Virus record (IMG/VR): IMGVR_UViG_3300020122_000466 | Location: 1-50,093 of that record | Source: a virus | Strand: one strand, 5' to 3' | DNA: 50,093 nucleotides | In this document: piece after piece, positions 11,412-34,268 of the stretch | Numbering within the stretch: the first letter of the stretch is position 1 | Layout of the letters: each line of letters begins with the position of its first letter | Position numbers and translations under genes: made by a program | Notes under the pieces: generated by a model | The model's input: only the letters and a program-made list of their open reading frames with translations | Told to the model about the DNA's origin: nothing | Databases searched by the model: none

Positions 11412-13235
11412 GTGCGCCCCCTTGCCCTCCTCTGTTTAGTCATTCTCCTCATCCTCGCGAGCCCAGCATGGGCAACGGTGGATGGTGGAGCTACCTACAC
11501 CACCTCTGGTGGGAGCACGAGTAGCACTGTCACCGTGGCCTGTGGGCAATCCAATTGCGTCGATAACTCTGCGCCCACTGACTCTACCTATTGGGGGCTG
11601 AGTGACACCCTGACGGATTGTGATGTCAGCGTCGAACTGAGCAATCCTCCTGGTGTAGGGAAGTCCTACACGGTGGCCGTTGCGTATGGCACCAGTGCCC
11701 TGCTCGCTGCGAGTGACTGCGTGATTGACGACAGTCTCATGTCGAGCGCGTCTGTTGGCAGCATTGCCAATACTCAACAAGAGTTAACAGGTAATGTCAC
11801 CTTATCAGGCAATGCGGCGGCGGGCGCCTGCATGAAACTTACCTTTGCACCAGTCAGTACACCCGCAACTGGGGTCGTACGCGCGACCCTCACTTGTCAC
11901 ACCACCGCCTCTGGCGCTGATGGCTTGATGGGGTTCAACACCGCTTCCACCTCAAGCTTTAGCTCTAGTGGTGGGTTCCTTGGGCCTGCGCAAACCGGCG
12001 CGACCGCTACACTTCGCAACTATTGGATCGCCCCACGAGATATCACCAAGTGTGCGGGGTCTCTCGCGATTTCCACCAATAACTTTAGTGGGAGTCCGCG
12101 CAAGTTCCAGTCACATGTCTCTTCCACTGCTCTTACTACTGCACAGAATTGCTTAGATATCGTCACCTACAATGATGTCGATCAGTGTAGTGTGGCGACA
12201 AACCAACGCTCCTGTAAGTTTACTTCTACGGCGCTCGCGATTACTGCCCATAAATGTTTCGATGTCAGCCTTGTTGTCCCTGCTAACGCAACCACAGCGC
12301 AAGTCGCCTCCTTCTCATGTACAACCGATGCCGCTGGCACACCACAAACTGGCGCAAATATCTATGCGTTCGCGGCGAATGAGACGAATACAGGGACCAC
12401 CTTTTGTGGCCTTAATTTTAATAATGGAGATCAGTGTGCCACGACCAATACCGATGCCACCACCTTCACCCTCGCCAAAGCTATCTCCACACTGCATGGA
12501 GGTGTAGCCCTCACGACTGCTCCGGATGGAGTGAAGACGATTGCGGTCGCGTTGCGCTGTTCGAGTGCTGCGGCCAGTTCCCAAACCTGTGCGGCTGCTA
12601 TTGCAGCGAGTTCTACGGACACCGCGCTTTGTACAATCGCGGCGGGCAATAAGAGTTGCTTTTGGACAGGTGTCGCGGGTTCGAGTCAAAAAGGGGCGTG
12701 TTGTACCTTTGTGCTGACACCATCCGCCGCCTTGGCTGTCGCGCCGGGTAATCTCACTCTAACGTTGGAAGCGGAGAATGGACCAGATACCACACCCACT
12801 CCTACTCTGACGCCGACGCCTACGCTGACTCCCACGCCGACTGTCACCCCAACCTCAACATTGACACCAACTCCAACGGTAACTCCGACCCCAACCCCTA
12901 CACGCACCCCTACGCCCACTTTGACCCCTACTCCGACAGTCACGGCGACCCTAACCCCAACGCCCACGGTGACAGCCGTGTTGACCGCCACGCCAACCCT
13001 CACGCCCACACCGACCGTGACCGCAACCTTAACCCCAACCCCGTCAGTCACGCGTACGCTCACTCCGACCCCTACACCCACTTCAACGCCAACGGTGACC
13101 CCAACCCGCACCGTCACGCCTACTGCCACCTGTCCCTTTCCCACCCCCTGTTTCTTTGGCAATAGCGTCTGTGTCGCCACCCCAACGCCAAGCATGACCG
13201 GGTTGACCCCCACTGCCACGCCCACGGTCCAATAA
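11412..13235 (+). CDS. Secreted fibre-like protein with tandem beta domains and Thr-Pro tail
   Basis: 607 residues from GTG. It opens with a clear Sec signal peptide (hydrophobic core [14 protein letters not shown], cleavage after AWA near 21). Residues ~45-455 hold three related Cys-containing beta domains, each with a hydrophobic strand pattern and a Cys pair (for example [20 protein letters not shown], then [12 protein letters not shown] and [10 protein letters not shown]). Residues ~458-575 are a Thr-Pro-rich linker ([11 protein letters not shown] repeated with variation), then a short Cys tail. Beta domains of this sort are common in tail-fibre proteins of uncultured phages. A signal peptide on such a protein is unusual: it would be exported by the host. 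First of four adjacent genes of this type. Confidence 0.65.
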
Positions 13236-13236
13236 G

Positions 13237-16200
13237 ATGAGCCGCGCCCGCACCCTCGTCATCCAACTGCTCACTTATGTGGTGTGGCTCGTCTTCCTTG
13301 GGGTGCTGGTGCACTGGGTGCTGAGCCCCATGGCCGCTGTGGGGGAAGTGATCACCCCCAGCGAGCTACAGGCACCAGGGCAGGTGCCCGGCCTGTTTGA
13401 CTGCCCCACCTATAACAAGAACGAGTTTAAGTGGCAGAACTTCTGTGGAGGGCCCACTGGCCCCGGCCAATGCTTCAGCCTCCCCTGTGTGAACAAGTTC
13501 TGCTTCCAACCCCGCCCCTGCGCCAGTGGCCAGTTTGCCTACGCGGTGGGGAAGAATGGGGATGCGATCTGTGCCCCTGTGATACAGGTGACGGCTACAG
13601 GGACCACCCCCACGGCAACACCAACCATTACGAGCACCGCTCCTACGGTGACCCCTACACCAACGGTAACCCCAACCTTCACCCCTCAACTCACGCCCAC
13701 ACCGACCGCAACTCCTACCGTGAATGTGTGTGTAGACATCCTCGCGTGTGTCACTCCCACACCAACGCCTACTGTTACGGTGACCCCAACCGCGACGAAG
13801 ACAGCCACCCCTACGGTCACCATCACCCCGACACCCACGATCACCGCAACCCCCACCGTCACCCCGACGCAGACTACAGTGGCCACGCCCACCACGGGCC
13901 CAGTGTTGGGCATCAGTGGGAATGATCTGGTCTTCACTTTCCAGAACTATGTAGAGTTATTAAGTAACTCTCTCTATATTAAGTTTGATGCCGCTGATCT
14001 TGGGAAACCTGCGGACATCATCCACATTGAGTTGATCCCGAGCGCCACTCCAACCCCCACACCCACTCCTACACGTACGGTCACCTTCACTCCTTCCCCT
14101 ACGGTGACCCCAACGAAGACCCTGATTGGCACCAGCACCCCTACGGTCAGCTCGACACCTGCGGCCACTCCCACCCCTACGTTTACGCCCAACACCGTGA
14201 GCATTCCCATCATGTTTGGGGTGTTCAATGCCTCCAATAGCATCACCCAGTTCTTCTCGTTGAATGGCTCATCGAGCGCGACCGAGAATAATCTCCGCCA
14301 TGCGCTCCAACTCGACACCTTCAGTGGCGCGGCCACCGAGTTCTGGTGTGAGGTGGGCACCGCTCCCGGTACGGGCACCAAGTGGACCTTCACCCTACGC
14401 GTGAACAACGCGGATAGTGCGATGAGCTGCGAGATCGCCAACGCCGACACCACCTGCCGGAACACGGTGCCGGTGGTTCCAGTCAACGATCAAGATACCA
14501 TTGATATTTCGAGTGTGCCTTTTCAGAGCCCAGTAGGAGCAGCGGGCACCAAGTGTGGATTCACCCTTCGGTTGAAGGTGCAGCAGGCCACCCCCACACC
14601 CAGTCCGACGGTTACCCCTACACTGACGCCAACACCGACAGTAACGGCGACGAAAACCGTTACCCCTACGATCACCGCTACCCCAACAGTGTCGGCAACG
14701 GCCACCTTGCGCCCTACGGCCACCCTCACCGTGCGCCCTACGGCCACCGCTGTAGGGACCACTGGCACCCCACTACCCACTCCTGCGATTGTGGTCCCTC
14801 TCCTCGAATCCAGTGGGTACATTTTCAGTGCCACCAACACCCAATTCATGTGGGGCACCTCTGACACTGATCTAAGCAGTGGGCATCATGTGGTTTCCAC
14901 TTCTGAGGCCCTTGTTCAAGCGCAGATTGCGCTCGCGGGCACGACCGGCACCCTCACCGATCTGACCTGTAACATGCCCCTCGGGGCGCCAGGCGTTGGG
15001 GGCCGCTTTACCATGACCGTGCGCATCAATGGGGTCTCCTCCACCTTGGTGTGTGCCATTGCTAATCTGGACACCACCTGCACCTCCGATGTGTTCGCGG
15101 AGAAGTCCGTGGTGGATAGCGATAAGCTCGCGATTCAGATTGTGCCGAGTGCGGTTAATAGCGCCAATCTGCCCTTGTTGATTAACTGTGGAGTGGCGCT
15201 GAAGGTCGCGAATCCCACGCCCACGGTCACCACGAGTCCCACACCCACGGTGACGGTGACGCCAACAGCTACCCTTACGCCAACACTAACAGTGACGCCC
15301 ACAGTCACCGCAACTCCAACGGTTACTCTAACCGCAACCCCCACCGTGACGCCTACACGGAGCCCAACCCCTACATTGACACCCACGAAGACGGTCACTC
15401 CTACCCTAACGATTGGGGTGACCCCTACAGGGCCTGCAGCGACGCGTACCGTCACGCCATCCCCAACCCCAACTGTGACGGCGACGAAGACTGCGACGGC
15501 CACCCGCTCGCCTACTCCTAGCTTGACCCCTACGCCTGAGAGCAGCCCGGTGGCACCCACCTACATGGCGCTCCCTGCAGGCAATGGTGCAGTGGGGGTG
15601 CTCTACGCTAACAATAACCAGGATGGCGCCACCATCAGTCGCCACTTGAAGTGCAGCGCGTTCATCCCCCAATACACTTTGACGAACATCCAAACCATTC
15701 AGTTCCGTATTGGGCTTGGAGGCACCACCGTCAATAACAACTGTGGCATCGCCATCTACGCGCAGCAGTCCACAGACCTTGATGAATATCAGGTAGCGAC
15801 GACGGGGATGAAGAGCTGTATGGACATGTCCCAGACATGGACCCAATCCTTTGCCGCAGTCTCTGTTCCTCCCTGTACAAGTGATAGCGATTGCACTCCG
15901 TTGTCTGGGACTGGACCGATGCTCTGCCAACCCAACTGTTATGATCCTAGTGGAGTTGCCCCTCCAAATAATCTTACATATGTGCGGACAATCTCCCCAT
16001 TAAATGGTCCTTTCACCCTCTATCAAGGTGTGAAGTATTTCTATTGCTGGACCGCTGTGGGCACCTCTAGTAGCAACCAGTTCTTCGTGAGCCCCGCTAC
16101 CTCTGGTTTTGAATTGCTTGGTAATCCCAACGGTACGAGTGCTACGGATGTCAACAACAATGGTGAGGCTACCAATCTTGCGACTACAACCAATATGCCA

Positions 16201-16275
16201 GGCCAGCTCGCAGGGATTGCCGCCACTGCTGGCACCCCGCCAGCTAGCTCAGCCCTTGTGGTGTTAAGTCAATGA
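13237..16275 (+). CDS. Membrane-anchored multidomain fibre-like protein with four Thr-Pro linkers
   Basis: 1012 residues. N-terminal uncleaved-looking hydrophobic segment (residues 8-32, [20 protein letters not shown]) suggests a signal anchor. A Cys-rich knot follows (residues 50-115). Then four Thr-Pro linkers at about 123-222, 270-320, 451-515 and 660-775, separating beta domains. Domains at 322-450 and 516-660 are clearly related: each has C-x-V/M then G-x-G-x-x-W/F-T-x-T-x-R-V/I-N, then C-x-I-A-N-x-D-T-T-C, then a D-x-I/L-x-I strand and a final CG strand. The C-terminal domain (776-1012) carries CTSDSDC and CQPNC pairs. The reverse strand of the linkers gives long open frames that are shadows. 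Role probably adhesion or surface display; see findings. Confidence 0.65.
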
Positions 16276-18518
16276 AAATACTTCTATTCCTTCTATTGCT
16301 ACTCATCCCCACCACAAGTTGGGCGACGGCACCCTTCCTCCATCCACCAGGGACGGGTAACAACTATGCCCCCTGCTTTCCTGGTGCTGATCATGGTTTG
16401 TACTTTGGCAACACCTGCCTCAATGACTTCAGTCAAGGCGGCCCTGGGGAGTTTTTCTTCGTCAACATGGATCTGGCGATGGCGGCGGAGCAATACACCC
16501 AAACGGGTTCCACGGGCATTGTAAACTATCGGCTGAATGTAGATCTGAGTAAGGCGACCCCTAATCCGACCAACGATGCCCAAATGAACATCTTTGGGTT
16601 TCAGTCGCTGTTGACTGGGGGAGCCACGAACCTTCCGGACACCCGCCCATTCTTCCTTGATTTCACCTATAACAATGCGACCACTGATGGGCATGTAGGG
16701 GGCGTGGTGCCGAGCATGTTTGCCATTCGCTCGACGATCACGACGGGGCGCTTAGCGGGCCTCACGGGGGTGCATATTGAGAGTCCGGTGTATCGTTTTG
16801 TGCAATGTTTAGCGGGCGCAAATGCGGGGGTGGCGTGCACCGATGATAGTGAGTGTCCTGGATCATTCTGTTCAAGTCCTGAACTGGCGTGTGTGGGAGG
16901 GCCGAATCAGGGTGCTTCGTGTAGCATCGATCAACAAGGAGGCATCGCGGATTCCATCTGCCCCTCCAGTTTCTGTGGAAAAGCCTTCGTCAATAGCCTC
17001 CCCGCAGGCCTTATCATTGAGCAACAAGCCATCAGTCCAGCCGCAGGTGAGCGGGGGTTTGGAATCAAAACCCTAGGCTCCACCGATGATTCCTACTTTC
17101 TTGGGCGCATGGCCATCGGAGCATTCCTCAATGAAGGAGGAGACACTACTCTTACTGCTGCCCCCAACGCGCATTTTCTCGTAGAGGGTGGGATTGCGCC
17201 TGGAGATGTACCTGTGGTCAATAGCACCCGCCCCCTCCCGTATCTTCAATATTTCAGTAATCGCACCGAACTCGTCCCCGCCATCGGGAATGTAGTGGTG
17301 CAGGATCTCGCGGTGAACGCGAACTATGGCACGACCACCACCCTTGCGGATCCGCATGTACTGGGTGTGGAACAGAGCACGGTCGCAGGCTCTGCGGTCG
17401 GCGCCATCGCCACTGAGGGCATGGTCAATGTGAACTGTGATGCGACCGCCATCACCCGTGGAGATTATCTGATCACCTCCACCACCGCAGGGTTGTGCAC
17501 CACCAATGGCACCACTCCGCCTCCACCTGGCGCACTCCTTGGGCGCGCCATCACCTCCAAGGGCGCTGGGGTTGGAACAGTGGATGTGTTGCTGAATGTT
17601 GGGGGGGTGAGTGTGCCCACCACTCCAACCGCCACGGTGACTGCAACCCCTACTCCTACGATTACCGTGACACCGACTCCTACGGTGACCGTCACCCCTA
17701 CCGCTACCTACCCTGTATATATTCTTAACACTCCCACGCGCACCCCAACTGTCACGCCAACACCCACTTCAACAGCAACCCTTACCCTTGGTCCTACCCC
17801 AACTGGACCCGCTGCCACACGGACTGCCACCCCTTCACCCACACCCACCAGCACCCTCTCTCCCACACCAAGCCCAAGTCCTACGGCTCCGGTAGAGATT
17901 GGCACTAGCCTTCGTATTGATGGGCAATATCTCTTAGTGCGTGGGGAAAACCAGTTCGCCCTCCTCCAACAAGACACCTATGCCGCCCCTGGAGGGGTGC
18001 TAATTCAAGCAGCTAATGGACTGACCCCGCTGGGTAATGTTGGGAATAATGGTGGAGCGGTGACGCTCCAAAGTGGTGGAGGGACTGGGGTAGCAACTAG
18101 TGGGGCTATCAGCCTCTTGTGTGGCACCCCTGGTTCAAACTGGGTTGGGGGAGACATTGACCTCAAGCCCTCGAAAGGTACGATCACTCCCTTTGGGAAT
18201 CGCATCTACTTTGATAATGCGGCACACCTCGTTGCAAAAGGTGGCAGTGTGCCCACCCTCTCTAGCTGTGGGACTAGTCCGAGTGTGGTCGTTGGCACGG
18301 ATAGCGCGGGCAGTTTCACGGTAGGCTCCGTGGCCACCGGGTGCGTCCTCACCTTCAACCAAACCTGGATCAACGCCCCGCATTGCTTCGCGAACGATCA
18401 TACCTCGGTGATTGCCGTCGGGACCACCACGACGACCACCACCATTACCTTCGACACCGCCACCCTCGCCGCCATTTCGAGCCAAGCCCTTGATTACTTC
18501 TGTATTGGAAATGAATAA
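16272..18518 (+). CDS. Secreted fibre-like protein with Cys motif, Thr-Pro linker and receptor-type knob
   Basis: 748 residues; ATGA overlap with the previous gene. Signal peptide (residues 1-18: poly-Leu core, cleavage after SWA). Residues 178-240 carry C-x(4)-G-A-x-C and CPGSFC/CPSSFC pairs such as CTDDSECPGSFC. Residues ~370-445 form a beta domain with TRGDYLITSTTAGLC and LLGRAITSKGAG, as in fibre modules next to intramolecular-chaperone domains. Thr-Pro linker ~448-540. The end (from about 660: LSSCGTSPSVVVGTDSAG, then GCVLTFNQTW and FCIG) matches a C-terminal knob very common in fibre-like proteins of uncultured phages. So this is most likely a host-binding fibre, but exported. Confidence 0.7.
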   Translation: MKILLFLLLLLIPTTSWATAPFLHPPGTGNNYAPCFPGADHGLYFGNTCLNDFSQGGPGEFFFVNMDLAMAAEQYTQTGSTGIVNYRLNVDLSKATPNPTNDAQMNIFGFQSLLTGGATNLPDTRPFFLDFTYNNATTDGHVGGVVPSMFAIRSTITTGRLAGLTGVHIESPVYRFVQCLAGANAGVACTDDSECPGSFCSSPELACVGGPNQGASCSIDQQGGIADSICPSSFCGKAFVNSLPAGLIIEQQAISPAAGERGFGIKTLGSTDDSYFLGRMAIGAFLNEGGDTTLTAAPNAHFLVEGGIAPGDVPVVNSTRPLPYLQYFSNRTELVPAIGNVVVQDLAVNANYGTTTTLADPHVLGVEQSTVAGSAVGAIATEGMVNVNCDATAITRGDYLITSTTAGLCTTNGTTPPPPGALLGRAITSKGAGVGTVDVLLNVGGVSVPTTPTATVTATPTPTITVTPTPTVTVTPTATYPVYILNTPTRTPTVTPTPTSTATLTLGPTPTGPAATRTATPSPTPTSTLSPTPSPSPTAPVEIGTSLRIDGQYLLVRGENQFALLQQDTYAAPGGVLIQAANGLTPLGNVGNNGGAVTLQSGGGTGVATSGAISLLCGTPGSNWVGGDIDLKPSKGTITPFGNRIYFDNAAHLVAKGGSVPTLSSCGTSPSVVVGTDSAGSFTVGSVATGCVLTFNQTWINAPHCFANDHTSVIAVGTTTTTTTITFDTATLAAISSQALDYFCIGNE

Positions 18519-19306
18519 TGTATAGATATATATTCATTCTATTACTTCTTCCTACTGTGGGCTGGGCCGCCCCCCCAGGCCAAGACACCCTCATCCCCAA
18601 TGCCAAGCGCTTTGGGGATGCGCCCTCCCACCTCTGGCAAACTCAACTCGCTCCTCACCACTATCGATTGTGTTACAACACCGCCCCAGATGGGGGCGGC
18701 ACACGGGAGGATGCCAGCTCTCTGAGTGATGTGCAGTGTGTGGACTTCAATGGGGAGCCCGCTACCAATACCCTGTGCTTAGTAGAAGGGCATGGCATTG
18801 ATAGCGCGGATGGGGCCCGAAACCTACTCTGTGTAGATGTGGTGCGCACCAGTTTTGGCCCTGATCTAGCGCTTGGAGGGGGTGAGGATGCCCGCCTTCT
18901 GAGTCCCTCAGCGAAGGGCACCAGTCCTGAGCGCCAAACCCAAGCGTATGAGCTGCTCTTTCGTACCGAGGACACCCGTATCGCCCTCCAAGCGCCCACT
19001 GCCCTCTGTTTAGGGGTGACCCCCTGGCACGTCCACGCCTGCACCGCCAGTGACGGGGCGCTGGGCACCTTCATTGGTTATGACACCGTGGAAATTGGGT
19101 GGGTGGCAGAAACCCTCGTCTATGCCAGCACCCGGGGGATTGTGCGTGGGGCGCCCTGCACCGGCACCATCAACACCGGAGACCCGGTGACCTTGGGCCA
19201 TACCCTCTTCACCACAGGGCTCTTGGTGCCCCCCTCGTCTACCCCGCTGGTGGGTCATGCCTTGACCCCCTGTGATGGTGCTACCTTAGACTTCCTTCAG
19301 CAATGA
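18518..19306 (+). CDS. Secreted fibre-associated protein with GD-type beta domain
   Basis: 262 residues; start overlaps the previous stop (TAATG). Signal peptide (residues 1-17, ILLLLPTVGWA). No Thr-Pro linker. The C-terminal 100 residues repeat the plan of the 748-residue protein's middle domain: VYASTRGIVRGAPC, INTGDPVTLGHTLFTTG, then LVGHALTPCDGATLDFL, i.e. a GD-x(2-3)-T turn and a Gly-x-Ala strand. It ends the fibre block, just before the lysis genes. Probably forms part of the same appendage or surface layer. Confidence 0.6.
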   Translation: MYRYIFILLLLPTVGWAAPPGQDTLIPNAKRFGDAPSHLWQTQLAPHHYRLCYNTAPDGGGTREDASSLSDVQCVDFNGEPATNTLCLVEGHGIDSADGARNLLCVDVVRTSFGPDLALGGGEDARLLSPSAKGTSPERQTQAYELLFRTEDTRIALQAPTALCLGVTPWHVHACTASDGALGTFIGYDTVEIGWVAETLVYASTRGIVRGAPCTGTINTGDPVTLGHTLFTTGLLVPPSSTPLVGHALTPCDGATLDFLQQ

Positions 19307-28630: not shown

Positions 28631-28854
28631 TCATCGCTGGTGATAAGTTGGTGTAACACATCTTCAAGGGAGGGCTCGGCGAGTTTAGCTCGGATCGCGT
28701 TGATCACCGCATCATGCACCATCATGTGAGGGAAATTGATATAGTAGACTGCATCGCGCAGGATGCTCCCAAGTGGCTCCTGTGGGATGAGTATCCCACC
28801 TTCTGGATGATAGATCACTCCCCACTTACTCACGTGCCAGATATCAAGCGGCAT
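28627..28854 (-). CDS. Hypothetical protein between polymerase and helicase, 75 aa
   Basis: Starts 11 bases inside the polymerase end and overlaps the helicase-like start by 4 (ATGA). Contains aromatic-rich N-terminus (LDIWHVSKWGVIYHP) and a helical second half (VHDAVINAIRAKLAE). No known motif. Its tight coupling between the polymerase and helicase makes a replication accessory role plausible. Confidence 0.55.
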   Translation of the reverse strand: MPLDIWHVSKWGVIYHPEGGILIPQEPLGSILRDAVYYINFPHMMVHDAVINAIRAKLAEPSLEDVLHQLITSDE

Positions 28855-30148
28855 AAGCCTTCATGTTATCCCAACTGGAGCCCACCTTAATCTCCACTGG
28901 GAACTTCACGAACCGCTGCCCTAGCCATACCGCGCGTTCCATGATCTCCTTCACCTCAGCAGCGAGCGCTGGTAAGCGCTCGGTGGGCGCATGCCCAAGA
29001 AACGCATCATGAATCTGAATGGAGAGGTGACGGAAGATGGACTCAGGGAAGCGGAGGAGGTTGAAACTCATGATGTCCGCTGCTGTACCTGAATTGATGG
29101 TGGCCAGACCCTCTTTATGTGGCTCACTTCCAAGAAGTACACGGACCCGTCCGAAAGCGTTACGTACAAACACTGGAACTCGTTGGGCACGGGCCTGATC
29201 CATGCTTGCCCCCACGCTAATTTGCCACGCCGCGATCTCTGGGTAGACTTGGAAGAGTTTACTTTGGAGTTCTTCGATGAGCGCTTGCTCAAGGTAGATC
29301 CCTTTGCGACTGAGCGCGATTTGGATGGCAACCTTTCCTCCCCCGTATAGAGATGCGAATACAAAGTTCTTAGCAAGGGTCCGGTTAACACCTTGGGTGT
29401 TGAAGAGGGCCTTCTCATTCTCCGCGTGGATATCCGCGCCTTCTTCTAAGCGCTCGATGAGCCTGCGCACATTCGCTAGGTAAGCTAGAGTACGTAACTC
29501 TAACATATGATAATCCCACTCGATTAACTGTTCACCTTCTGGAGCTACGAACACCTCCCGCAAGTGATGCTCCACACCAGTGTTATCCACAATAGGAAAG
29601 GTCTCATCCTTCTTCGCAATGTTCTGAAGGTTAGTGCCATGCCCCGCTTGATTACACACCTGGCACCAGCCTAGTTTGGCGCTGGAATACCGGCCAGTCT
29701 CTGTCCCAGTTGAACGGAGAGCAGTCCGCAGGCGCCCATCCTTGCAAGGGATCATACTCGTTAGGTTTGCGCGGGTCTTCTCCACCTTCTTCCGTTTGAT
29801 CAGCAGTGGCAGGAATGGGAACCGTGGATCACTGGGGCGCACCTCATTGAAGTGGTGGTGGATGCGCCTGAGCACATCGAGGTCAGTGACAAACTCCCCC
29901 CCTGGAGTTTTCTTCTCCAGAGGGACACCGAGCGCTCGTAGATCCCGGCTGAGCTGCTTACCACTGCCCGCGTCCATGATGCCCGCAGCGGTCAGCTCCA
30001 TGTCCAAGTCTGCGAGCATCTGGGCGCTCCACTGAATGAGCTGCAGCCTGCGCGCGTTATCCATGGGTAAGCCTTGGAGGCCCAAGCGCTGCACCCTTGG
30101 CAGCAGTGCTAGGCCCATGCGGTGGATGTAGGCGACTCCTAAGCTCAT
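28844..30148 (-). CDS. DNA polymerase, family A (polymerase domain only)
   Basis: 434 residues, palm-fingers-thumb but no exonuclease. The start at 30148 (TAATG overlap) is preferred to upstream in-frame codons. Seen: the TETGRYSS motif (149-156), a CQVC insert before the usual NLQNI (173-177), motif A DYHMLELR (Asp212), motif B R256-x3-K260-x3-F264-x3-Y268-G, and motif C IHDAF with Asp381. Motif C normally reads HDE; here the Glu is Ala382, while both metal-binding Asp residues are kept. Lys260 and Phe264 match the E. coli Pol I fingers positions. Its 3'-5' exonuclease is in the gene at 32303-33100, so the polymerase appears split. Confidence 0.85.
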   Translation of the reverse strand: MSLGVAYIHRMGLALLPRVQRLGLQGLPMDNARRLQLIQWSAQMLADLDMELTAAGIMDAGSGKQLSRDLRALGVPLEKKTPGGEFVTDLDVLRRIHHHFNEVRPSDPRFPFLPLLIKRKKVEKTRANLTSMIPCKDGRLRTALRSTGTETGRYSSAKLGWCQVCNQAGHGTNLQNIAKKDETFPIVDNTGVEHHLREVFVAPEGEQLIEWDYHMLELRTLAYLANVRRLIERLEEGADIHAENEKALFNTQGVNRTLAKNFVFASLYGGGKVAIQIALSRKGIYLEQALIEELQSKLFQVYPEIAAWQISVGASMDQARAQRVPVFVRNAFGRVRVLLGSEPHKEGLATINSGTAADIMSFNLLRFPESIFRHLSIQIHDAFLGHAPTERLPALAAEVKEIMERAVWLGQRFVKFPVEIKVGSSWDNMKAYAA

Positions 30149-30282
30149 TACCACACGAGATGCCAATGCCGTGGGCAATAAGCCCATCCCACTTGCGCAC
30201 ATTGACAAGGGGGATCAGGGGCGAACCAGAGCCAATAAATCCAGCGCCAGAGCGCGGCGGCGATGGTGGCGGGGGTGGTCAT
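30148..30282 (-). CDS. Trp/Cys-rich micro-protein, 44 aa
   Basis: ATGA overlap with the preceding gene and TAATG overlap with the polymerase start. The product has a hydrophobic, aromatic stretch ALWRWIYWLWFAP, then CQC and YCPRHWH, so a membrane-contacting N-terminal part and a possible metal site. Its size made it easy to miss; fit between neighbours supports it. Confidence 0.5.
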   Translation of the reverse strand: MTTPATIAAALWRWIYWLWFAPDPPCQCAQVGWAYCPRHWHLVW

Positions 30283-30491
30283 CGTGGCTTCCACTCAAAA
30301 TCGTGATGCGACGGGGAAGGGTCCACCTTCGCGCACTCCCCAATCGCCTTCGTGAACTTCGTCTCGCAGTCCGCAAAGTACTGCTGACCAAGCGCATAGT
30401 CGGGGATGCCCGGATGGAGGCAACCTTGATGGTCGTCGATGGCGCCTCGGAGACACACGAACAACATCACGGCGGCGAGATCGCTGCTCAT
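30279..30491 (-). CDS. Small Cys-containing protein, 70 aa
   Basis: Good ribosome-binding site (GGAGGAGACGAA) shared with the tail of the upstream micro-gene. A short hydrophobic start (AAVMLFVCLRGA) may be a weak signal or anchor; the rest (CLHPGIPDYALGQQYFADC and CAKVDPSPSHHDF) has four Cys in all. Function unknown. It overlaps other open frames on both strands, but this one reads most like a protein. Confidence 0.5.
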   Translation of the reverse strand: MSSDLAAVMLFVCLRGAIDDHQGCLHPGIPDYALGQQYFADCETKFTKAIGECAKVDPSPSHHDFEWKPR

Positions 30492-30571
30492 TTCGTCTCC
30501 TCCTGCGCGTCCGTCCGCCGCTTCTGCCCGGCTTCAATCAAGTTCGCGATCTTCCGCAGATTGGTGATCAT
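30488..30571 (-). CDS. Micro-gene, 27 aa, coupled at both ends
   Basis: ATG at 30571 overlaps the upstream stop and the TGA overlaps the next ATG. The product (MITNLRKIANLIEAGQKRR and a short acidic end) would be one amphipathic helix. Its 3' end carries the next gene's ribosome-binding site, so it may act as a coupling leader rather than as a protein. Confidence 0.35.
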   Translation of the reverse strand: MITNLRKIANLIEAGQKRRTDAQEETK

Positions 30572-30948
30572 CTCGTCGGTGGTCGTAGGGCGGCGTCGAG
30601 GGCGGTGGCGGCTCCTTTCGCGGCCCATCCCGGTTCACAAGGTGGGTCGTAATCACCACAGTGCTGATCATGCAGCTTCCGGGCCTGATCCCGCTCCCTT
30701 CGCAGCCGCGCCACCTCGGCCCGTACTTCTCGCAAGGTAGTGGCGTCGTTGGTCAGCGCTTCAATCAACCCTTGCGCACCCGCGACCATTTGTTCCGGTG
30801 TTGCGTGCGGCCCGAGGCTCAGCGCCTCACCAATCGCAATGAGCGCGTCCCGCAGGGCGGTGACGAGCCCCGCGCGACCGTCCGAACCATCTTCTAAGAG
30901 TTGCGTTATGAAGCGTGTGGCCTGCGCGATCAGGTCGTCAGGCGCCAT
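30568..30948 (-). CDS. Coiled-coil protein, 126 aa
   Basis: ATG at 30948 behind GAGGAGGCACCC. Helical (LIAQATRFITQLLEDGSDG at first) with a coiled coil (LREVRAEVARLRRERDQARK) near residue 85, and a short Pro/Cys segment CGDYDPPCEPG near the end. Part of the cassette between exonuclease and polymerase. No family recognised. Confidence 0.55.
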   Translation of the reverse strand: MAPDDLIAQATRFITQLLEDGSDGRAGLVTALRDALIAIGEALSLGPHATPEQMVAGAQGLIEALTNDATTLREVRAEVARLRRERDQARKLHDQHCGDYDPPCEPGWAAKGAATALDAALRPPTR

Positions 30949-31180
30949 CGGGTGCCTCCTCCACTCTCCGTCGTGCAGCTTTCCGCCGCTGCTTGCGTGC
31001 GCTCGCCACATCCTGACACCGCCGCGTACAGTAAATGCGTAGACGATTCGTGGTCATAAACCACGCCTTGCAGACCGCGCAGGACTTCCGCCCCTCAACG
31101 GTGATACCGAGCGTCGCTTCAATGCGCTCGATGCGTGCCTCCAGCGTGGTGAGCGTGGTTGCCTTCGTTGCCCACGTCAT
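30938..31180 (-). CDS. Zinc-finger basic protein, 80 aa
   Basis: Helical N-terminus (LEARIERIEATLGI), then CAVCKAWF (C-x2-C) and YCTRRCQDVASARKQRRKA (C-x3-C), with a run of Arg and Lys. The spacing resembles CGNR/MYND-like zinc fingers that bind DNA. A candidate small DNA-binding regulator in the replication cassette. ATGA overlap with the upstream gene. Confidence 0.55.
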   Translation of the reverse strand: MTWATKATTLTTLEARIERIEATLGITVEGRKSCAVCKAWFMTTNRLRIYCTRRCQDVASARKQRRKAARRRVEEAPDGA

Positions 31181-31482
31181 TCCCGGTCCTCCGGCGACGG
31201 GGGGAAGGTCCGATCAAGCAAGCACGCGAGTCGTTCCTGTTCTTGTCGTGATAAGCCGTACCCACCCCTGACGCGCGTCTGCAAAATACGATCTTCAGCG
31301 GAGAGCTGTGGCGCCTGTGCGACCAGGGCGATTAGCTCGAAGATCGTGCGCGACGCCAAGTCCTCATTGTACGCCGCGAGCATTTCCGCCGTCGCCTTCG
31401 CCCGGCGCAGCACCGCCGCGTGCTCAGGGCTCACCCCACCACGCTTAGGTTGGAAACAATGCTCACAAAACTCCTTACTCAT
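31177..31482 (-). CDS. Small CxxC protein, 101 aa
   Basis: Starts MSKEFCEHCFQPKRGG (C-x2-C), followed by a helical body (AAVLRRAKATAEMLAAYNED) and an Arg/Glu-rich end. One CxxC only, so a full metal site would need a partner or a dimer. Overlaps both neighbours by 4 bases. Unknown role. Confidence 0.55.
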   Translation of the reverse strand: MSKEFCEHCFQPKRGGVSPEHAAVLRRAKATAEMLAAYNEDLASRTIFELIALVAQAPQLSAEDRILQTRVRGGYGLSRQEQERLACLLDRTFPPSPEDRE

Positions 31483-32165
31483 GGCACCACCACAAACTGA
31501 AAACTCACCTTCACAGGCCCAAACGCACTCGCCAGCGCCCTCCCTTGCTGATCATTGACCAGCCGCCCCAGCTTATGTGCAGTCAGGGTCTCTACTCGCG
31601 TGATCACCGGGATCCCCGTCGCGCCAGCCCTCATCTGCAGCTCATGCACCAGCGCATCCTCTGGGGTCTGATACCACAGATGGTTCAACACGGTGGCGAT
31701 CTCAGTGAGCTGATACTTGCTCACCCCATAATCCGGTTGATCCGCGCGCTTACTCTCACAATCGAGGGTGAGACACACATTCTGCTGCAAATACCATTGT
31801 AGCTCATTCACATCTGGCCCTTCATTGTTGGCCCAAATTTGGGCGATGGGCGCGCTATCCATAGGCTGAAAGAGGACCATGCTCGCATGCACTCCGCTGA
31901 GCCAGGGGAGCACACTGGTGGGGCCCACCCCCTCGCTGATCGCCAAGGTGAGCAAGCCCTTCACTCGTTTCCCACTCTCAAAGGTCAGGGTGCATTCAGG
32001 GGGCAGACCTAGGCGGGTGCAGAGCGCATTCTGCCGATCCGGGATGGTATTCCCTCCCCCATGTGCGGTGGTCACGAGCACCAAAGGGAGGAGGGCCAGC
32101 AACCAGTACACCCAGCGAGGGATGCGCACACTGTTCATCATCACGACGGTGCCGAGGGAGCCCAT
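31479..32165 (-). CDS. Membrane-anchored or secreted unknown protein, 228 aa
   Basis: The ATG at 32165 has the strongest ribosome-binding site of this arm (AGGAGGGTCCT). A longer start at 32306 overlaps the exonuclease stop (ATGA) and would add 47 residues of low-complexity sequence, so it is the alternative. Near residues 15-35 (VYWLLALLPLVLVTTAHG) is a hydrophobic segment that fits a signal peptide or anchor. The rest is a mixed domain with three Cys (ALC, PEC and TLDCESK among them) and no catalytic motif I know. An envelope protein in the replication arm might alter the host surface early in infection. Confidence 0.55.
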   Translation of the reverse strand: MGSLGTVVMMNSVRIPRWVYWLLALLPLVLVTTAHGGGNTIPDRQNALCTRLGLPPECTLTFESGKRVKGLLTLAISEGVGPTSVLPWLSGVHASMVLFQPMDSAPIAQIWANNEGPDVNELQWYLQQNVCLTLDCESKRADQPDYGVSKYQLTEIATVLNHLWYQTPEDALVHELQMRAGATGIPVITRVETLTAHKLGRLVNDQQGRALASAFGPVKVSFQFVVVP

Positions 32166-32191
32166 AGGACCCTCCTGTTGAGGGAAGTTGA

Positions 32192-32228
32192 CACCCACCC
32201 CTGCCTTTGCCGTGGACAAGGGTGGGTG
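32192..32228 (-). promoter_or_regulatory. Leader stem-loop between exonuclease and the membrane-protein gene
   Basis: CACCCACCC (32192-32200) pairs with GGGTGGGTG (32220-32228) around 19 bases, in the 137-base stretch between the exonuclease stop and the strong start at 32165. On the leftward message it lies 27 bases upstream of that start codon. It could control translation of the downstream gene or halt transcription weakly; no T-run follows. Confidence 0.35.
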
Positions 32229-32302
32229 CCTTCCTTCCTCGTTCAGCTCCCGATTGTCAAAGAGCGTGGGAGGAGCCCCGGGTGAAGGGGGGCCAAGGGT
32301 GT

Positions 32303-33100
32303 TCATGCCATCAACCTCTCAAGTGAGAGCGCCGCGCCTGCCTGCGCAAAGCAGTCTCGGAGGCAATAAATGCGCAAGCGCTCATCCGCCATCTCCTGCA
32401 AGTTCTCAAACTTCACGAGGTCATCGGCCTCTTCCTCGGTCCCTTCCGTTTGATGCACTTCCTCCTTATAAGCAGGAAGGTCTGTATCCATACTTGCTTG
32501 GTGGGCCAGCGAGTGTGGTAGCTCTGGACAGACGCAATGGTGAGCGACCATCGTGTCGATCTCAAGGCCCTTAGGTTTAATTCCCCATGCACGCCGGGTG
32601 AGAGCGTAATGTGTTTCATCCCATCCTTCATCGCTAAAACCTCCATCAAATCCCACCCAATTCTGGCCCACCTTCTTCCATGAAGGGTCCTCTAGAAACT
32701 CGCGGATGAGCCCAAGAACCTGGCGTTCCTCACCAGCGGGCCAGTATGGGTGCCCCCCACGACACCGAAAGGGGATACACAACCCTTGGGCATCGAGCCA
32801 ACTGTCAACAGGCCACATGCCCATACACCAAATCTCCCCCGCAAAGGTGGCCTCAAAGTCCACACTCATGCGCTGCCCATGCATGAACCCCATAAAGGTG
32901 GCCACTTCCTCTAGGGTGGGATAGAGACTGGCCTTGGGATACCCAGCACCAGTGCGCTCACACTTGGGGATCAAGGTGGGCCCTTCCTTCTGAATCCTCA
33001 CGAGCTTCTTGAGATCCCTGAGCACACAGATTTGCATCTTTTGGGAGCGCAGGAGGGCAGCCGGGTGGATCGTTGGTACTACGTATGCAGGGTATTTCAT
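32303..33100 (-). CDS. 3'-5' exonuclease, Pol A type, with the end of a uracil-DNA glycosylase domain at its N-terminus
   Basis: 265 residues. The first 35 (AYVVPTIHPAALLRSQKMQI, then LRDLKKLV) read like the last part of a family-4 glycosylase domain, with the HPA-type motif at His12-Pro-Ala. The rest is a DnaQ-type exonuclease: motif I VDFEA (Asp81, Glu83), motif II VGQNWVGFD (Asn147, Asp152), and motif III YCLRDC (Tyr245, Asp249). It proofreads DNA and in relatives lies in front of the polymerase domain in one chain. Here it stops right where the polymerase domain should begin. The start codon lacks a clear ribosome-binding site; the frame upstream is open for only 17 codons. Confidence 0.75.
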   Translation of the reverse strand: MKYPAYVVPTIHPAALLRSQKMQICVLRDLKKLVRIQKEGPTLIPKCERTGAGYPKASLYPTLEEVATFMGFMHGQRMSVDFEATFAGEIWCMGMWPVDSWLDAQGLCIPFRCRGGHPYWPAGEERQVLGLIREFLEDPSWKKVGQNWVGFDGGFSDEGWDETHYALTRRAWGIKPKGLEIDTMVAHHCVCPELPHSLAHQASMDTDLPAYKEEVHQTEGTEEEADDLVKFENLQEMADERLRIYCLRDCFAQAGAALSLERLMA

Positions 33101-33163
33101 GGAGTCTTCACTGGAGTGGGAATAGTCTCCACTACCTGTGTGAGTACTTCATTGACATTCCCT

Positions 33164-33550
33164 CTACGGTGTAAGAGCTTGAACCGTAACACCTGTTGGC
33201 GGAGTCGGGATTGCTGGATTAAGAAAGGTTACCGCATTGGATGCGGCACCTCCTTGTCCTAGGGAGTTGATGGCCACCAACGTGACCCCGTAGGTGGTGC
33301 CTGGTGTGAGGGTTGAGGGGTAGGGTTGGGTGGAGCAGCGCTTGGTACCACTCACCACACTCCCTGCGAGCACATCGGCATAGAGGAGCACCGCTGGACC
33401 ACTGGGCGGGGTCGCGTCAGCGCGGATGGTGGCCGCGCTGGGATCAACGCTCCCATTATCATAACAAATCTTTAGACTCGCGGCGTGCGCGGGTGACCAG
33501 CTCACCATCAGTGAGATCAATAGGATCCACAGGAATGTCCACCACCGCAT
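33164..33550 (-). CDS. Secreted fibronectin-III-like small protein, 128 aa
   Basis: Signal peptide at residues 1-23 (Trp/Leu-rich core, then AHA cleavage site) followed by one beta-sandwich domain. The end shows the FnIII signature TPGTTYGVTLVAINSLGQG and a Pro-rich tail (AIPTPPTGVTVQ). Two Cys (KICYDNGS and KRCSTQ) may form a disulfide. Such domains bind sugars or proteins at cell surfaces. Its first 92 bases overlap the end of the glycosylase gene in another frame, so it sits exactly at the break of the glycosylase domain. Unusual place for a secreted protein. Confidence 0.6.
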   Translation of the reverse strand: MRWWTFLWILLISLMVSWSPAHAASLKICYDNGSVDPSAATIRADATPPSGPAVLLYADVLAGSVVSGTKRCSTQPYPSTLTPGTTYGVTLVAINSLGQGGAASNAVTFLNPAIPTPPTGVTVQALTP

Positions 33551-34268
33551 GTTCCTTCTCCCTTCGTTTGGCTAACTTTCGGATGCCGATGCGCTGCCAT
33601 CCCATAATCTTCCGCAACCGCCGCTCAAACTCCTTCCACCATGGTTCATCAAAGGGCACATCCTTCATTGTCCATGGTTTGAGTCCCCGTAGGGCGATCT
33701 TGGCGACGGCATCGAATCCATAGAGAGGTAAATCATCCACATCGATGAGCTGGGGGCGCCCCCTGTATAAGCCAATCTTGTCGTGCCCGGTGAGCAGCTC
33801 CAGCGCCACGCCTCCCTGTGGCCCGATAGCGCGATTGGAATTCCGCTTAAACAACTCTTTAAGCAAATTGACCGCACTGTCATGACAACACGCGAGGGCC
33901 TTTCTGCCAATCGGCGAGTTGGCCTTGTTCTTCGGGGGCTGACACATGGCCGCATTCATAATGAACGCATTGATCGACTTGACACGGGCATACTTGAGCC
34001 CTGGTTGCATGGTCACCAAGCCCGCTTTCGCTAACAACTCTCTCTTCCACATTTCACCTGAGCGCCCCACAAAGGGTTCCCCATAAGGCTGGCGATGCTC
34101 ATTGTACTCGGTCTCATCCTTCCCAGGCATCTCCCCGATGAGGATGAGGGGGGCGTCGAGGGGCCCAGCACACCCAACCTTTCGCTTATGATTCAACGGG
34201 CACAGCGCACATTGCGAACCGTGCTCTAGTCGCCACTGGACTAGATCCCCCTCGAAGGGCGCGCTCAC
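33459..34268 (-). CDS. Family-4-type uracil-DNA glycosylase, split (N-terminal part)
   Basis: 269 residues. Cluster Cys pattern of family 4 glycosylases: CALC at Cys20/Cys23, Cys109 in NAAMCQPP and Cys127 in ALACC, for a 4Fe-4S cluster. Active-site blocks: GEMPGKDE (45-52), GEPFVGRSG (63-71) and a helix pattern KSINAFIMNAAMC. After YRGRP (168-172) the normal run to the HPA motif is missing; an unrelated 97-residue tail (LYGFDAVAKIALRGL to the end) replaces it, and the HPA block starts the gene at 32303-33100. It may remove uracil or act as a DNA-binding domain of the polymerase. Whether the two halves assemble is not known. Confidence 0.7.
   Translation of the reverse strand: MSAPFEGDLVQWRLEHGSQCALCPLNHKRKVGCAGPLDAPLILIGEMPGKDETEYNEHRQPYGEPFVGRSGEMWKRELLAKAGLVTMQPGLKYARVKSINAFIMNAAMCQPPKNKANSPIGRKALACCHDSAVNLLKELFKRNSNRAIGPQGGVALELLTGHDKIGLYRGRPQLIDVDDLPLYGFDAVAKIALRGLKPWTMKDVPFDEPWWKEFERRLRKIMGWQRIGIRKLAKRREKEHAVVDIPVDPIDLTDGELVTRARRESKDLL

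Follow-up and report, generated by a model that had tools for sequence, protein, structure and literature searches.

Organization of the replicase locus

The replicase genes described here lie in a 50,093-base IMG/VR phage record (the window, i.e. the whole stretch of DNA that was analysed). Genes for a uracil-DNA glycosylase (UDG), an exonuclease and a family-A polymerase (PolA) are all encoded on its minus strand, and each of the three frames is intact. The genes and their parts are as follows:

33459-34268, minus strand: UDG chain, whole gene; 269 aa, intact frame
33753..34268, minus strand: UDG chain core, residues 1-172; Pfam UDG, match to the profile of fused forms, fold match to 1vk2, PDB sequence match
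33459..33752, minus strand: helical C-terminal tail of the UDG chain, residues 173-269; seven-member alignment, helices in the model
33164..33550, minus strand: exported fn3-like small protein; weak Pfam fn3 match, orthologues in L023, L027, L030 and L031
32303-33100, minus strand: exonuclease chain, whole gene; 265 aa, intact frame
32975..33100, minus strand: N-terminal module of the exonuclease chain (UDG last strand, HP motif, helix); fused UDG profile, PDB UDG C-termini
32303..32974, minus strand: 3′-5′ exonuclease domain, Pol I type; PHROG 17, alignment, fold matches
30148..32306, minus strand: seven overlapping genes in the exonuclease-polymerase gap; coordinates and overlaps, window contig only
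28844-30148, from ATG, minus strand: PolA chain, whole gene; 434 aa, intact frame
28844..30148, minus strand: family-A polymerase domain chain, thumb to palm; Pfam DNA_pol_A, alignments, PDB matches to Taq and Klenow

The three domains had been placed correctly in the first-pass annotation of this DNA. The UDG and polymerase chains match Pfam UDG (7.7e-6) and DNA_pol_A (8e-37), respectively, and the family PHROG 17 (DNA polymerase, 1445 positions) is matched by the exonuclease gene at positions 606-818 and by the polymerase gene at positions 851-1236. Since these two matches are consecutive, the exonuclease and polymerase genes are pieces of one protein. All three domains of a PHROG 17-type UDG-exonuclease-PolA replicase are present in the window and colinear; instead of the single chain of such replicases, there are three frames in the window and two chains in one relative (L030).

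Seven small coupled genes, recognized already at first pass, fill the exonuclease-polymerase gap and overlap by 1-11 bases. They encode products of 275, 101, 80, 126, 27, 70 and 44 aa, are slightly higher in G+C, and were found in the window contig only; none of them has a relative in the loci of the other phages of the clade described below. The 80-aa product has a weak NinG-like zinc-finger match. The small protein encoded between UDG and exonuclease, previously described as secreted, does have a signal-peptide-like N-terminus; it is not a one-off insert, as orthologues exist in four relatives. Its gene shares 92 bases with the UDG gene, and 63 bases separate its stop codon from the exonuclease ATG. 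Because of this spacer the coupling is incomplete, and the earlier statement that all frames are coupled has to be corrected. In L023 and L027 the orthologue likewise sits between UDG and exonuclease, and in L030 and L031 it lies upstream of UDG, which makes the exported fn3-like gene a constant neighbour of UDG (window 33164-33550; L023 7599-8000; L027 4089-4442; L030 5848-6243; L031 4438-4824). Elsewhere in the window, in the structural region at 11412-19306, four consecutive genes have signal-peptide-like or membrane-anchor-like starts, which is unusual for virion genes.

Fused and split relatives

A near-identity DNA search in phage records gave no match, and neither an initial viral scan using only the polymerase as query nor two scans of a genome collection found relatives. 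Phages related by their terminase (L010-L015, 73-97% identity) are mostly represented without the replication region, and a UDG (L018) was present only in the L015 contig. One-chain UDG-exonuclease-PolA forms were found in L002 (799 aa), L004 (795 aa), L005 (896 aa), L033, Microcystis phage Mel-JY34 (810 aa; XAI96477.1) and Brevundimonas phage StAshley (858 aa; UTC29944.1). It had been proposed at first pass that one ancestral UDG-exonuclease-PolA protein was cut into separate genes with the order conserved, and two findings had been named as contrary to this: relatives in which the genes are always separate, and exonuclease and polymerase domains of different families. Neither was encountered. 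Uninterrupted fusions exist, and the exonuclease and polymerase are of a single family; in L030, from the window's own clade, they remain one chain. Thus, the three genes of the window descend from a fused replicase.

Other relatives (L003, MW202554) have UDG-exonuclease apart from the polymerase, in two chains. The window itself belongs to a clade of uncultured phages in which the cut lies inside the UDG domain. Complete pairs are available for six members (window, L023, L026, L027, L030 and L031), and two more are partial: L018, with a UDG only, truncated like that of the window, on a contig that stops before the exonuclease, and L028, with the exonuclease end and the polymerase. Both the polymerase tree and the exonuclease tree unite the clade as a single group (100/100). 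Five further contigs, with polymerases at 35-55% identity to the window enzyme, share the UDG/exonuclease break of the window; its recurrence at such divergence is therefore not due to chance, and the cut has been conserved. The UDG-exonuclease gap ranges from 0.36 to ~4.1 kb across the clade and contains whole genes, with differing gene content.

Cuts at further positions were also observed. In Caulobacter phage Kuura (L006 3536-4645 and 5258-6940) and in L032 (7483-8490 and 8770-10320) the cut is inside the exonuclease: motifs 1-2 are on the UDG-exonuclease chain, while the third (YNGLD) opens the polymerase chain, so the exonuclease site would be common to two chains. In L035 the exonuclease with the first polymerase part (2-1138) and the rest of the polymerase (2067-2873) are ~0.9 kb apart. 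This cut is inside the polymerase domain, the same as reported for MEP401-type phages, as far as their published description goes.

The polymerase chain and its border with the exonuclease

Alignments of the window PolA chain identified the family-A motifs (motif A D212, O-helix R256/K260, motif C H380-D381), and its PDB sequence matches are Taq and Klenow. The exonuclease/polymerase border varies from member to member: the two are fused in L030, overlap in L023, are ~0.5-1 kb apart in L031, L026 and L027, and 2.15 kb apart in the window. When the two ends in the window were compared with fused L030, one residue (the start Met) was found to be added and none lost at the joint, bearing out the initial reading that this cut falls exactly at the domain border.

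The second Tyr position of the O-helix (YG in the window, LYGGG) is occupied by Arg (VRGGGG, KRGGGG) in L023 (9561-10967), L030 (8227-10344) and L031 (8998-10368). Such a Tyr-to-Arg change is unusual at a template-contacting residue.

The first break falls within the glycosylase domain

At its beginning the exonuclease gene encodes the C-terminal ~35 residues of a UDG (VVPTIHPAALLRSQ). Its start, MKYPAYVVPTIHPAALLRSQ, corresponds to the UDG domain end with the HP motif in fused relatives, the motif being H12 P13 in the window chain. Therefore, the first break falls within the UDG domain, and an HP-bearing UDG fragment travels with the exonuclease. Profile comparisons locate the cut precisely: the first 42 residues of the exonuclease chains align with columns 151-182 of the 188 columns of the fused UDG profile (95.8%, E 7e-9), and the profile of the seven clade UDG chains aligns with columns 18-146 only (99.4%, E 1e-21), so that the fused UDG domain is tiled nearly gap-free by two genes. 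PDB searches gave the same division. When restricted to three split members, the exonuclease N-terminus matched family-4 UDG C-termini only (best E 0.004), and with the fused forms added it corresponded to residues 153-186 of the Thermotoga maritima UDG (E 4e-7); the UDG profile matched residues 1-147 of the same enzyme (1l9g, E 6.5e-27), the match ending at profile position 172. The break had been set between glycosylase and exonuclease at first pass; the profile tiling and the PDB matches place it inside the glycosylase.

In every clade member 6-11 residues separate the start of the exonuclease chain from the HP position, with chain starts chosen by eye. The helix of the module and the RIQKEGPT stretch are conserved even in members without HP. 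In the model of the exonuclease chain (pLDDT 82) the N-terminus is unpaired and of low confidence and is followed by a helix. A fold search with this chain matched Pol I (Klenow) and RNase D-type exonucleases and gave no separate structural match for the N-terminal module. The exonuclease catalytic set is kept in the alignment (D81, E83, N147, D152, Y245, D249).

The UDG chain is the equivalent of family-4 UDG residues 1-147 with a helical tail added, and its core stops at the RGR loop. Its model (mean pLDDT 80) has the UDG fold core and matches 1vk2 (residues 2-154 of 190, 147 residues, Z 14.6), without the last strand and with helices in its place. The last strand and the HP motif, which a family-4 UDG has on the same chain, are both at the start of the exonuclease chain. 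The UDG chain carries a catalytic-Glu motif of the G-E-x-P-G type (GEMPG, E46) and the Fe-S cysteines C20, C23, C109 and C127/128; the four predicted cluster cysteines are kept in 7/7 UDG chains of the clade. The tail is modelled with middling confidence, and its first part (LRG.KP..EWW) is conserved across the clade in the alignment of seven members.

The tail was also considered as a second, degenerate HP module, the L018 stretch 'YEPDEAILKFVLRG' resembling 'YHPA..LLR'. This was ruled out: neither profile scoring against shuffles nor hhalign profile comparison detected similarity between the tail (after residue 172) and the HP module. A caveat comes from L018: in this one member the Pfam UDG alignment extends across the tail and nearly reaches the end of the model, hinting that the tail might represent a UDG end in degenerate form.

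Two further features of the UDG domains were noted. In the UDG chains of L027 (3114-3929), L030 (6283-7164) and L031 (4876-5733) the PFVG pocket is altered and the Glu motif lost, with all Fe-S cysteines kept; judged by these residues, the three chains appear to be inactive glycosylase folds kept for another task. The N-terminal CxxC is missing from the UDG domains of L002, L003, L004, L008 and L033, which are fused or UDG-exonuclease forms and therefore cannot hold the family-4 Fe-S cluster; the split clade, unlike them, has kept all four cysteines.

Joint loss of the two motifs of the glycosylase

We compared the Glu motif of the UDG chain with the HP motif of the exonuclease chain in the six complete pairs. 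Both are intact in the window (GEMPG and IHPA), L023 (FEAPG and MHPA) and L026 (GEAPG and YHPA), and both are lost in L027 (LDTPT and LNPN), L031 (LSMPE and HDPK) and L030 (GDFPS and LLPG). Thus, three phages have both the Glu on one chain and the His on the other, three have neither, and the two halves of the site have evolved jointly. In the polymerase tree L023 (intact) groups with L027 (lost; support 86/89) and L030 with L031 (both lost; 100/99), while the window and L026, both intact, stand apart from these groups. This placement means that joint loss has occurred at least twice. In a simple branch count (nine branches with two losses each, for the six complete pairs) the losses would coincide by chance in ~1 of 36 cases. 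The concordance favours a single active site to which both chains contribute. As the Fe-S cysteines are kept in all seven UDG chains, folding and docking presumably persist in the dead forms; and since three relatives with a dead site retain both pieces, docking is probably of structural use in itself.

Proposed assembly of the three chains and alternative explanations

In the UDG fold the last strand of a central sheet runs into the HP loop. With the missing strand and the His supplied by the exonuclease N-terminus, as the fold implies, assembly of the replicase would also assemble the glycosylase. We propose the following arrangement. Chain 1 provides the Fe-S core and the catalytic-Glu motif. 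Chain 2, the exonuclease, bears the UDG last strand, HP motif and helix on a protruding N-terminus, which most likely completes the open sheet of chain 1. Completion of the sheet would dock the two chains and build the uracil-excising site only inside the replicase, and chain 3, the polymerase, would then pack on the exonuclease as in Pol I.

We consider it probable that the locus encodes a three-chain replicase of one-chain ancestry, in which the exonuclease N-terminus completes the UDG fold and site and the polymerase packs on the exonuclease; docking, activity in trans and a single complex of all three chains are what we infer from the results above. The location of two catalytic motifs on different proteins suggests that the uracil remover works only once the pieces meet. 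It is a more tentative proposal, on which we stop just short of an even bet, that the UDG site exists only when the halves carried by both replicase subunits are joined, and that several phages, having lost both motifs at once, keep the split fold solely for docking.

The N-terminal module could, on the other hand, be kept for a structural reason only. It might be an old leftover of the fused UDG that caps the exonuclease, the upstream UDG being a separate protein with a replaced C-terminus and no active site common to the two. Conservation of the helix and the RIQKEGPT stretch where HP is lost would fit such a cap, as would the conserved tail that the UDG chains carry instead of a UDG end and the Pfam alignment of the L018 tail to the UDG end. 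However, the UDG chain and the module tile one domain with no overlap, the tail has no similarity to the module, and HP is retained solely in members whose UDG chain has an intact Glu motif, all of which makes this explanation unlikely. Misassembly, or decay of the replicase to a non-functional state in this contig alone, is very improbable: the contig is metagenomic, and the seven-gene insert with its slightly higher G+C occurs only here, yet the identical UDG cut is found in independent contigs, the frames are intact and joined by overlaps, and the exonuclease and polymerase catalytic residues are kept. Rejoining of the pieces into a single chain after transcription or translation, by a group I or II intron or a split intein, is hardly credible even though introns in polymerase genes of SPO1-like phages are known (cited in PMC10580990), because a search of this part of the window (at E values up to 1) and of six relatives detected no Rfam intron family, the 6-11 residues before the HP position leave, as judged from the sequence, no room for the C-terminal part of an intein, and the gaps of 0.36 to ~4.1 kb contain whole genes.

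Comparison with known systems

A three-chain replicase in which the exonuclease N-terminus would complete the glycosylase was compared with systems already described. PolA fused to UDG is known from PaBG gp205 (PMC7412058), and the phiLo polymerase (PDB 9qhs) has a UDG match. These one-chain PHROG 17 replicases (PaBG gp205, Mel-JY34, StAshley, 9qhs) have the same three domains, of the same families and in the same order, as the window; they are single chains, whereas the window has three and the first cut lies inside the UDG domain. Kuura (OQ067476) and MW202554 resemble the window in having UDG-exonuclease and polymerase on separate genes, but in them an undivided UDG is fused to the exonuclease, and Kuura is cut inside the exonuclease, before the third motif. 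Compared with family-4 UDGs (T. maritima TM0511, 1l9g/1vk2; T. thermophilus, 1ui0), the window UDG chain has the same fold, Fe-S cysteines and Glu motif but is without the last strand, HP motif and helix, the counterpart of the HP motif being on the exonuclease chain.

Split phage PolA replicases have been described in MEP401-type OM43 phages; these are family-A enzymes, like that of the window, encoded by two genes with a small gene between them (PMC10580990). As far as that report describes them, the cut is inside the polymerase domain and, unlike in the window, there is no UDG part. The suggestion made at first pass of a new multi-part replicase is thus narrowed: split PolA was already known, at least as PMC10580990 presents it, and the cut in UDG was absent from the literature covered. 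In a limited search, neither a replicase with its UDG domain divided between two genes nor a naturally split UDG was found. The best reading is that the window adds a new variant to the split phage replicases already known, a three-chain enzyme partly held together by fold complementation.

Arranged by the position of the cut, the related phages range from fused forms through cuts within UDG, within the exonuclease and between exonuclease and polymerase to cuts within the polymerase. This fission series makes the order and the tolerance of replicase fission testable. If the proposed assembly is true, fold complementation would serve as replicase glue, and these phages would have a natural split DNA glycosylase whose repair activity depends on the replication enzyme being present, so that base excision would be licensed by replicase assembly.
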